A DNA stretch of 34,823 nt from assembly GCA_007132715.1 (NCBI GenBank), contig SLOE01000086.1:1-34823 (forward strand), read 5' to 3'. Origin of the DNA: Bacteroidales bacterium (lineage in GTDB: Bacteria; Bacteroidota; Bacteroidia; Bacteroidales; PUMT01). A program made the translations under genes and the position numbers. Each line of letters starts with the position of its first letter. Position 1 is the stretch's first letter. The notes beneath the pieces were generated by a model that was not told where the DNA came from, made no database searches, and was given only the letters and a program-made list of their open reading frames with translations. Shown in pieces: positions 23,761-27,226 of this stretch.

Positions 23761-25401
23761 ATGAAGAGCTTCTTATTACCGTTAATGGCGTTTATCCTGA
23801 TCCTTGCCATTCCGTTGTCGCTTTACGGCAGGGATGACTACCCTGACCATGACCGGCTTGCCGCCCGTCTGAAAAGCCTGGAGGCTGATTATCCGCAGTA
23901 TGTCTCGTTACAGTCACTTACACAAACGGCAGGGGGAAAAGATATATGGGTCCTGTCCATAGGGACGGATAACCTGTCTGACCGCCCTGCCATTGCCGTG
24001 GCAGGGGGTACTGAAGGAGACCATCTGCTTGGTACTGAGCTGGCACTCAGGTTTGCCGGGATGCTGCTTAAGGAGACCGTTAGCGGGAAAACCGGTAGTT
24101 TGCTTGATTCTGTAACTTTCTATGTGTTTCCCGATATGACACCTGATGCCGGGGAACAATATTTCTTACCCCTCAAATATGAGCGCAAGGGGAATGCCAA
24201 TTCCTCTTACACTGACCGTTACGGGAATGCGATAGATCATCCCTACACCGATCTCAACAATGACGGCATGATAACCCTGATGAGGGTAAGGGACCGGAAT
24301 GGTGATTGGATACCTCATCCGGATGACGACCGGGTTATGGTGAAGGCAGACAAGGGAATTGGAGAGACAGGAAGATATAGTGTATATCCCGAAGGTGTAG
24401 ACCTGCTGAAAGATGATAGATGGACCGAGGCAGGTGTGAATTTCAACAGGAATTTCTCCTTCAAATTCCCCAATTTTACCAGCGGCGCAGGTGAACATGC
24501 AGTGTCTGAAGAGGAGAGCCGGGCTATTGCGTCATTCCTGTTTGATGCGAAGAACGTATATGCTGTGGTCTCTTTCGGATCTGCAAACAATCTTACTGAG
24601 CCACTCAGCTACAATGAGCGTGAGGCATCAGGCCGCATCATTACCGGAATACTTGAGGGAGATGCCAGGGTAAACCAGATGGTGAGCCGGAAATATAATG
24701 AGATCACGGGCGATATCTCAGGCCCTGCGGCAGCCGGCAGTGACGGCGATTTTTTCCAGTGGGCGTACTTTCATTACGGCAGGCACAGCTTCAGTACACC
24801 CGGCTGGAGCTTTCCCCGCGAACAGCCGGGCAACGGAGGGAGAAGGAGCAGAAGTGAACGGGATGACTGTCCCGCTCTACACTTCCTTAAATGGGCCGAT
24901 GAACAGGGGATTGATGACGTCTTTATACCCTGGGAGAGTGCTGTTCACCCCATGTTCCCCGGAAAGGAAATTGAGGTTGGAGGTATCAGACCTTTTGCAA
25001 TGAAGAATCCCCCCTTTGAAATGACTGCAGATATTGCCACAAGCCATTACAGGTTCATATTGGCGCTTGCTGAAATGCGACCTGAAATCAGGATCAGGAA
25101 TGTTGAAACCGAAGTACTGGGGAGGGGTGTGTACCGAATTACTGCCGATATTGTCAACTCAGGTATACTGCCTACTGTATCAGAACTTGGTGAAAGGGTC
25201 AGGTGGGTTCAGAAGACAGTGGTAAGGCTGGAGACAGATGAGGGCCAGGAAACGCTGAGCGGAAACCGTATAGAGGTGCTGGACGCTGTACAGGGAGGGA
25301 AAACAGAAACCCGCAGCTGGCTGATAAAGGGCCGTGGCAGCGTAAAACTCAGGGCGGGAGCTGAGAATACAGGGTTTGACGAGGTCATTATCAGGCTGTA
25401 G
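23761..25401 (+). CDS. M14-family protein with rearranged active site (probable pseudo-peptidase)
   Basis: 546 aa with a Sec signal peptide (LLPLMAFILILAIPLSLYG). It aligns by eye with the next gene across the metallocarboxypeptidase domain (GKDIWVLSIG, TDLNNDGMITLMRVRDRNGD, NFNRN). At the zinc-ligand site, where the neighbour has HANE, this protein has EGDH (residues 85-88): the His and Glu positions are swapped. At the third-ligand position (neighbour SYHNTGG) it reads SFGSANN, giving Gly273 instead of His. At the catalytic Glu position (neighbour FTNELM) it reads FSTPGW, giving Pro347. The substrate-binding Asn-Arg pair survives (NFNRN), while the Arg after NPDG is lost. There are no stops or frameshifts, so it is a maintained gene. 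It is probably a non-catalytic binding protein or an enzyme with altered chemistry. Confidence 0.8.
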   Translation: MKSFLLPLMAFILILAIPLSLYGRDDYPDHDRLAARLKSLEADYPQYVSLQSLTQTAGGKDIWVLSIGTDNLSDRPAIAVAGGTEGDHLLGTELALRFAGMLLKETVSGKTGSLLDSVTFYVFPDMTPDAGEQYFLPLKYERKGNANSSYTDRYGNAIDHPYTDLNNDGMITLMRVRDRNGDWIPHPDDDRVMVKADKGIGETGRYSVYPEGVDLLKDDRWTEAGVNFNRNFSFKFPNFTSGAGEHAVSEEESRAIASFLFDAKNVYAVVSFGSANNLTEPLSYNEREASGRIITGILEGDARVNQMVSRKYNEITGDISGPAAAGSDGDFFQWAYFHYGRHSFSTPGWSFPREQPGNGGRRSRSERDDCPALHFLKWADEQGIDDVFIPWESAVHPMFPGKEIEVGGIRPFAMKNPPFEMTADIATSHYRFILALAEMRPEIRIRNVETEVLGRGVYRITADIVNSGILPTVSELGERVRWVQKTVVRLETDEGQETLSGNRIEVLDAVQGGKTETRSWLIKGRGSVKLRAGAENTGFDEVIIRL

Positions 25402-25474
25402 ACCAGACAACCGGTGACCATCATTCCTGTCAGCCCTTAACGATTTACTGATAAAAATTTTAACCTGCTGAATT

Positions 25475-27226
25475 ATGCAAATCACATTGAAAAAAGGTAT
25501 TACCACAATTCTTTCAGCCATCCTGATCGCCATTACATGTAACGGGCAGGAAGAGGTGACTGAGCATTTCTTCAAGGCTTCAGGAACCCCCGTCAACCCA
25601 GAAGTGCAGGTGGCGTGGAACCGATATTATACAAATGAGGGGCTGCTCGGGATATACCGTGAACTTGAAAGGGCCCATCCATCGCTTGTCAAACTTGAAT
25701 CGATCGGTAAGTCATTTGAAGGCCGTGATATATGGGTGCTTACTGTCACCAATCACAAAAACAGGTATCACGGCGACAAACCCGGGTTCTGGATCGACGG
25801 CAATATTCACGCAAATGAGATCCAGTGCAGCGAAATAGCACTTTACACAGCATGGTATCTTGCTGAGAATTACGGGCAGAACAGGTTCATTACCGGGCTT
25901 ATGGATGACAAGGTCTTTTACATTGCTCCCACCATTAATCCCGACGGAAGGCATAATTATATGCATGAACCGAATACCGTCAACAGTCCCCGCTCCGGCA
26001 CCATACCCCTTGACGACGACGGCGACGGCGAGGCTGCCGAGGACGGGTTTGACGACCTGAACAATGACGGGCATATAACCCAGATGCGAAGGAGGTGCGA
26101 GTTTGGCGAATACCGTGAAGATCCTGACGATCCAAGGAGGCTGGTGCGTGTCCGGCCCGGGGAGAGAGGTGAATTTGAGCTTCTGGGCTGGGAAGGAATT
26201 GACAGGGACGGCGACGGACGCATCAATGAGGACAGGATCGGTTACTATGATCCCAACAGGGACTGGGGATGGAACTGGCAGCCTGACTATGTGCAGAGGG
26301 GTGCCTATCATTACCCGTTTGCCTTGCCTGAAAACAAGGCTGTAAGGGATTTCATACTCTCCAGGCCGAACATAGCGGGAGCACAGTCCTATCATAATAC
26401 GGGCGGGATGATACTGCGCGGACCGGGGGCTGCCGAAGATGAACGGCTGATGAGGCCGGTCGACAGGAGGGTTTATGATGCCATTGGCGAGCTGGGGGAC
26501 AGATTGCTTCCCGGGTACAGGTACCTGGTTCTCTACAGGGATCTGTATACCGTATATGGTGGTCAGATTGACTGGTTCCATTTCAACAGAGGCATATATA
26601 CATTTACCAATGAGCTGATGACCAGTTATCTCTATTTTTATGAGCAGTATGAGACACGGGATGACAGTCAGCGGGCACAATTCGATTTTGACAGGTACCT
26701 GCTGTTTGAAGATGCATTCGTTCCATGGGAAAAATATGACCATCCCCAGTTCGGAGAAATTGAGATAGGAGGGTTCAAGAAGAACTTCGGGAGAATTCAT
26801 CCCGGGTTCATGTTTGAGCAGGATGCTCACAGAAATATGGCATTTACCCTGCATCATGCATACCATACCCCACAGCTCGACATACATGAATTCACTGTAA
26901 ATGATCTGGGTGCCGGTCTTAGCGAGGTGATCACAGTTATTTCAAATTCGCGCCTTATTCCCACCCACAGTGGTATTGATGTTGAAAACAATATTGAGAG
27001 GCCTGACTATATAACCCTTGAAGGTGGGGAGGTACTGGCAGGAATGAAAGTGCATAACAGGGACCTGAATATTGCAGAAGAACAAAAGGTGAATCCTGCG
27101 CGGATGGAGATCGCGAATATACCCGGAATGGGACTGGTAACCGTAAAATGGATCGTGGAAGGCGGTCGCGATTACAGGGTCACAGTTGACAGTGCAAAAG
27201 GAGGGAGGTTCACCCGTGAATTCTGA
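25475..27226 (+). CDS. Exported M14 zinc carboxypeptidase
   Basis: 583 aa with a signal peptide ending near TCNG. Zinc ligands are His112 and Glu115 in DGNIHANE, with the third ligand His307 in SYHNTGG. The catalytic Glu380 is in FTNELM. Substrate-side residues are Arg159 (NPDGR) and Asn261-Arg262 (DPNRDWGWNW). The domain is therefore complete. Two acidic loops (about residues 180-199 and 242-253, with DDDGDG, DLNNDGH and DRDGDGRINED) look like Ca2+-binding DxDxDG loops inserted in the catalytic domain. A C-terminal all-beta region of about 130 residues follows. Substrate may be peptide or a gamma-D-Glu-type cell-wall bond; this is not decidable here. It lies 73 nt downstream of its degenerate paralogue, probably in the same operon. 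Confidence 0.9.
   Translation: MQITLKKGITTILSAILIAITCNGQEEVTEHFFKASGTPVNPEVQVAWNRYYTNEGLLGIYRELERAHPSLVKLESIGKSFEGRDIWVLTVTNHKNRYHGDKPGFWIDGNIHANEIQCSEIALYTAWYLAENYGQNRFITGLMDDKVFYIAPTINPDGRHNYMHEPNTVNSPRSGTIPLDDDGDGEAAEDGFDDLNNDGHITQMRRRCEFGEYREDPDDPRRLVRVRPGERGEFELLGWEGIDRDGDGRINEDRIGYYDPNRDWGWNWQPDYVQRGAYHYPFALPENKAVRDFILSRPNIAGAQSYHNTGGMILRGPGAAEDERLMRPVDRRVYDAIGELGDRLLPGYRYLVLYRDLYTVYGGQIDWFHFNRGIYTFTNELMTSYLYFYEQYETRDDSQRAQFDFDRYLLFEDAFVPWEKYDHPQFGEIEIGGFKKNFGRIHPGFMFEQDAHRNMAFTLHHAYHTPQLDIHEFTVNDLGAGLSEVITVISNSRLIPTHSGIDVENNIERPDYITLEGGEVLAGMKVHNRDLNIAEEQKVNPARMEIANIPGMGLVTVKWIVEGGRDYRVTVDSAKGGRFTREF

Follow-up and report, generated by a model that had tools for sequence, protein, structure and literature searches.

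A dead M14 carboxypeptidase paralogue co-inherited with an intact M14 carboxypeptidase in Bacteroidota

The window analyzed here, a stretch of 34,823 nucleotides from a Bacteroidales bacterium (contig SLOE01000086.1), contains two M14 genes in tandem on the forward (+) strand, to which all feature coordinates in the window refer. The upstream gene, P1 (23761..25401), encodes an M14 pseudo-carboxypeptidase of 546 aa, and the downstream gene, P2 (25475..27226), an intact M14 carboxypeptidase of 583 aa; both frames are open and are separated by 73 bp. P1 is composed of an N-terminal hydrophobic, signal-like segment, an M14 domain (residues ~25-440) and a C-terminal beta-sandwich (~443-546). The two proteins share 26% identity over most of their length (BLAST, E 4e-33), are aligned by hhalign with a probability of 100% in profile-profile comparison, and match Pfam Peptidase_M14 with 74.2 bits for P1 and 142.2 bits for P2, the cut-off being 21.6 bits. 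A search of NCBIfam returned no useful family. The AlphaFold model of P1 (mean pLDDT 82.8) matches carboxypeptidase T (VIA Z 27.0, rmsd 3.2, 282 residues) and carboxypeptidases A and B (Z about 25-26), and both sequence profile and fold place P1 in the M14 superfamily. While P1 has the same fold as carboxypeptidases A and T (Z 25-27), both P1 and P2 differ from these enzymes in having additional acidic loops of calcium-like type and a beta domain at the C-terminus. The acidic DxNxDG loops, which resemble calcium sites and are retained in both proteins, are predicted to bind metal, presumably calcium; one of them, the DxNxDGxI loop DLNNDGMI (P1 residues 164-171, 24250..24273), is common to P1 and P2. 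N-terminal hydrophobic segments are found in most orthologues of P1 and P2, and both proteins are likely exported.

P2 has kept the complete set of residues of an active M14 peptidase. These are H112 and E115, the first two zinc ligands (HANE, residues 112-115, 25808..25819); H307, the third ligand (SYHNTGG, 305-311, 26387..26407); the general base E380 (FTNELM, 377-382, 26603..26620); the Asn-Arg pair N261-R262 (26255..26260), and Y358. They correspond to H69, E72, H196, E270, N144, R145 and Y248 of carboxypeptidase A and are conserved in nearly all relatives: among 121 P2 proteins, the first two ligands and the Asn-Arg pair are kept in 121/121, the third His in 119/121 and the general-base Glu in 120/121. 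As in carboxypeptidase A, the equivalents of the zinc ligands, the general base, Tyr248, Arg145 and Ile/Leu255 are thus retained, and P2 is predicted to be an active M14 carboxypeptidase. At the position of I255, P2 has Ile or Leu, which in known M14 enzymes goes with hydrophobic C-terminal residues.

In P1, the same positions are occupied by other residues. The sites of zinc ligands 1 and 2 (HANE in P2) read EGDH (residues 85-88, 24013..24024), the third-ligand loop reads SFGSANN (271-277, 24571..24591) with Gly in place of His, and FSTPGW (344-349, 24790..24807) carries Pro in place of the general-base Glu. E85 and H88 lie opposite H112 and E115 of P2 in the BLAST, hhalign and MAFFT alignments alike, while G273 faces H307 and P347 faces E380 in the MAFFT alignment, so that the column-matched motifs are EGDH, NR, SFGS and FSTPG in P1 versus HANE, NR, SYHN and FTNEL in P2. 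In contrast to carboxypeptidases A and T, the catalytic set is gone: the zinc ligands of active M14 enzymes (H69, E72 and H196) are replaced by E85, H88 and G273, and the general base (E270) by P347.

This loss was followed across 116 P1-clade proteins, drawn from 80 loci at 43-77% identity (one genome per species; the best 80 of 148 matches, all from Bacteroidota in the broad sense) and from 395 surveyed genomes of this phylum. HxxE was found at the ligand sites in 0/116 of these relatives. The third-His position is Ser in 58, Gly in 55 and another residue in 3, and never His; the general-base position is Pro in 103, Gln in 7, Asp in 2 and another residue in 4, and never Glu. What the P1 clade conserves is inactivation itself and not the ExxH motif.

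The original prediction had started from this motif, proposing that the first two zinc ligands had been exchanged (HxxE to ExxH). The motifs which it quoted for both proteins are exact and in register, and the fold-level match of the P1 model gives no hint of a true HxxE elsewhere in P1, in agreement with the sequence register. The exchange itself did not hold, as the pair varies. Among 115 relatives (one of the 116 being gapped at these two columns), it is Glu..His in 64, Lys..His in 13, Ser..His in 8, Glu..Glu in 7, Asp..His in 3 and Glu..Asp in 3, the other 17 including Ser..Tyr. The first site can also be Lys, Ser, Asp, Ala, Met or Leu, and the second Glu, Arg, Asp, Gln, Ile, Tyr or Thr; SADH and SGEY are found at the EGDH site in the window's own family. 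Among the 546 columns, those of E85 and H88 come about 250th and 227th in conservation, which is average. In the P1 branches that diverge deepest, Glu already occupies the first site in most cases, with Ile, Gln, His, Ser, Arg or Asp at the second; the reversed look is therefore one of several outcomes after loss of the site. ExxH is the commonest of these outcomes, a coincidence rather than a ligand exchange, and a conserved reversed zinc motif is ruled out by the varying residues in the orthologue columns. The metal site of new geometry, which had also been put forward, is not supported because both residues vary across orthologues. We regard as very unlikely that the ExxH pair forms such a site, or that the old fold of P1 has acquired a new catalytic function: Glu..His is indeed the commonest pair (64/115), and strong conservation is seen for D330, Q333, H338 and R341, which lie in the old pocket or close to it, but both ligand positions vary even within the window's own family, and no conserved residue stands in for the third His in the alignment.

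The most conserved stretch of P1, GDFFQWAYFHYGR (residues 329-341, 24745..24783), is aligned with the S1' pocket wall of carboxypeptidase A, and residues 326-352 (GDFFQWAYFHxGRxSFSTPGW) have a mean of 0.41 bits against 1.23 bits for the whole protein. Similarly, the old third-ligand loop has a mean of 0.62 bits against the same 1.23 bits, and N277 within it is nearly invariant in orthologues. D330, Q333, R341, R292 and H429 are each nearly fixed in P1, with a different, near-fixed residue in P2. The walls of the former active site are thus among the best-conserved parts of P1. P1 is under strong purifying selection: its dN/dS between relatives is 0.015-0.09 (synonymous sites being almost saturated where the compared sequences are more distant), and that of P2 is similar or lower. 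P1 hence has the three traits that define an M14 pseudopeptidase: the M14 fold, lost catalytic residues and a gene kept by selection.

P1 is almost always found with P2. At 79 of the 80 loci (the best 80 of 148 matches), P2 lies directly downstream of P1 on the same strand, and at the 80th the contig ends 23 bases past P1. The gap ranges from -1 to 147 bp and is mostly below 20 bp, start codons having been chosen by rule. None of the genes flanking the pair in the window (encoding an HtrA-like protease, a sigma factor, UvrB and others) is found at more than 2 of 78 loci, and general synteny was therefore rejected as the cause of the adjacency; upstream neighbours of the pair are common to Cyclobacteriaceae-like relatives. 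In the phylum sample of 395 genomes, 37 have P2, and 36 of these also have P1 (counting G326, which has the C-terminal part of P1 at a contig start), while the other 358 have neither (Fisher p about 2e-50, uncorrected for relatedness). In G135, the exception, P2 sits right where a contig begins. In a class sample of 295 genomes, both genes occur in the same 10, and in the window's own family P1 was found in 5 genomes and P2 in 4, the contig of the fifth, G406, ending inside P2. In three genomes (G192, G562 and G651), P1 and P2 are at separate places and both are retained, so that co-retention does not reflect linkage only. G092 carries two complete P1-P2 pairs. In the genus to which the window belongs (G398-G409), the pair has a patchy distribution: neither gene is present in 11 of 13 genomes, many of them incomplete. 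Two P2-type genes stand behind a single P1 at some loci (L004 7435-11037, L015 6520-10491 and L016 7677-11223), where the live partner has been duplicated and the dead one has not.

These observations bear on the remaining parts of the original prediction. That P1 is a maintained pseudo-peptidase beside an active M14 enzyme is borne out by the catalytic set being always gone, by purifying selection and by co-occurrence even where the genes are unlinked. It had proposed to look for orthologues with a conserved EGDH always next to an intact M14: they nearly always adjoin an intact M14 gene, but EGDH is not conserved. It had also taken random residues at these sites as a sign of simple decay; this largely applies to the two residues, yet conservation is high in the remainder of the cleft, and decay therefore does not follow. 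The notion that P1 represents a pseudogene copy of P2 in decay retains next to no probability: the catalytic residues are gone, as it would have it, but full-length open P1 frames are present in nearly all genomes, dN/dS is low, and P1 and P2 are co-retained across the phylum. Simple decay was rejected on dN/dS and co-retention.

The history of the pair was examined in a maximum-likelihood tree built from 27 P1-P2 pairs together with 9 further M14 proteins. P1 and P2 each form a clade (support 100/99 and 98/89, respectively), with nearly identical branching order inside. P1 and P2 distances are correlated at 0.85, whereas none of 2000 permutations exceeded 0.48, P1 distances being ~1.6x P2 distances; the matching trees partly reflect shared species history. 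Probably, a single ancient split inside M14 took place, after which the dead and the live proteins travelled together. Another M14 group (L128, L129, L130 and L199) is placed with P1 in the tree, on long branches, and a sister relationship between P1 and P2 is not certain.

In many Bacteroidota, the dead P1 is kept, and only with an intact, usually adjacent sister, which suggests that both work as one machine. We consider it probable that P1 is an ancient dead M14 paralogue and the obligate partner of the active, presumably exported P2; most likely, the two form a heteromeric peptidase to which P1 contributes the non-catalytic subunit. In such a peptidase, P2 would take off C-terminal residues, with an Ile/Leu specificity position like that of carboxypeptidase A. 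P1 would physically associate with P2, and its altered cleft (GDFFQWAYFHxGRxSF and N277) might hold the substrate or shape and limit access to P2, a role which by analogy would resemble that of the dead alpha subunit of mitochondrial processing peptidase, or of TldE in TldD/E. Tentatively, the pair could be the first obligate two-subunit M14 carboxypeptidase, found across Bacteroidota, in which the rebuilt cleft of the dead subunit selects the substrate for the live one.

Co-occurrence of P1 and P2 would also be expected if both acted successively on one substrate without contact. P1 might then be a stand-alone peptide or glycopeptide receptor built on the old cleft, belonging to the pathway of P2 and co-inherited with it. 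Conservation of the former cleft with a new residue set and co-inheritance even in the three genomes where the genes are unlinked speak for this alternative, which we nevertheless judge rather unlikely, the very tight, mostly short-gap adjacency and the 1:1 match of the trees fitting a complex at least as well. Distinctly improbable is a role of P1 as an inhibitor, chaperone or propeptide-like guard, assisting folding of P2 or holding it inactive until export; P1 lies upstream of P2 and is likely co-expressed with it, and the fold common to both would permit dimer-like capping, but acting purely as a chaperone or inhibitor would not in itself account for conservation being highest at the walls of the former active site.

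Compared with known systems, the heteromeric reading has precedents outside M14. In a review of metallopeptidase pseudoenzymes, five M14 pseudopeptidases are described, all eukaryotic (PMC11266112). These proteins, AEBP1/ACLP, CPXM1, CPXM2, domain III of carboxypeptidase D (CPD) and yeast Ecm14, have, like P1, an M14 fold with substituted active-site residues and are, like P1, maintained by selection (PMC11266112; PMC7706225). Among them, only domain III of CPD has a physical link to active M14 domains, being fused with them in one chain, whereas P1 is encoded by a bacterial gene of its own that is inherited together with a single active M14. The residue set of P1, Glu/His/Gly-Ser/Pro, matches none of those in the review (PMC11266112). 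Closer in organization are mitochondrial processing peptidase alpha/beta and the prokaryotic M16 two-gene operons, in which dead and live metallopeptidase paralogues are paired like P1 and P2 and the dead subunit is required for substrate binding (PMC11266112). Similarly, TldD/TldE is made of two paralogous subunits with a metal site in only one, and both are needed for activity (PMC5810440). P1 and P2 are likewise paralogues that are co-encoded and co-inherited. The M16 pairs and TldD/TldE (the latter of another family as well) are unrelated to P1-P2 in fold, and their heterodimers have been proven and solved, respectively, while that of P1-P2 is proposed here. To our knowledge, no M14 heteromer of this kind is known. 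Searches of open-licence PubMed Central papers, which give weak evidence of absence, returned no bacterial M14 pseudopeptidase and no M14 dead-live pair of separate genes. Dead-live subunit pairs are known for M16 and TldD/E, and none was found for M14 carboxypeptidases. Retained jointly over deep divergence, and also where the genes have separated or been duplicated, P1 and P2 offer a clean natural test of why a dead enzyme is retained, a question directly testable with two genes.

A few loci depart from the common arrangement. In G116 (L115 1716-3364), P1 is split into two overlapping frames of 192 and 365 aa, by either a frameshift or an assembly error, and adjoins two intact P2-type genes. 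In G326 (L119 499-2229), one of two tandem P2-type copies is without the third His (YLN versus YHN), HxxE and the general-base Glu being still present; the zinc site may have been lost here for a second time and more recently. Finally, L128, L130 and L199 are M14 proteins of Bacteroidota with HSGE and the Glu but with MDTRV at the third-ligand loop; the third His is not evident in L128 and L130, both of which were checked, and the group may represent a second altered M14 type.
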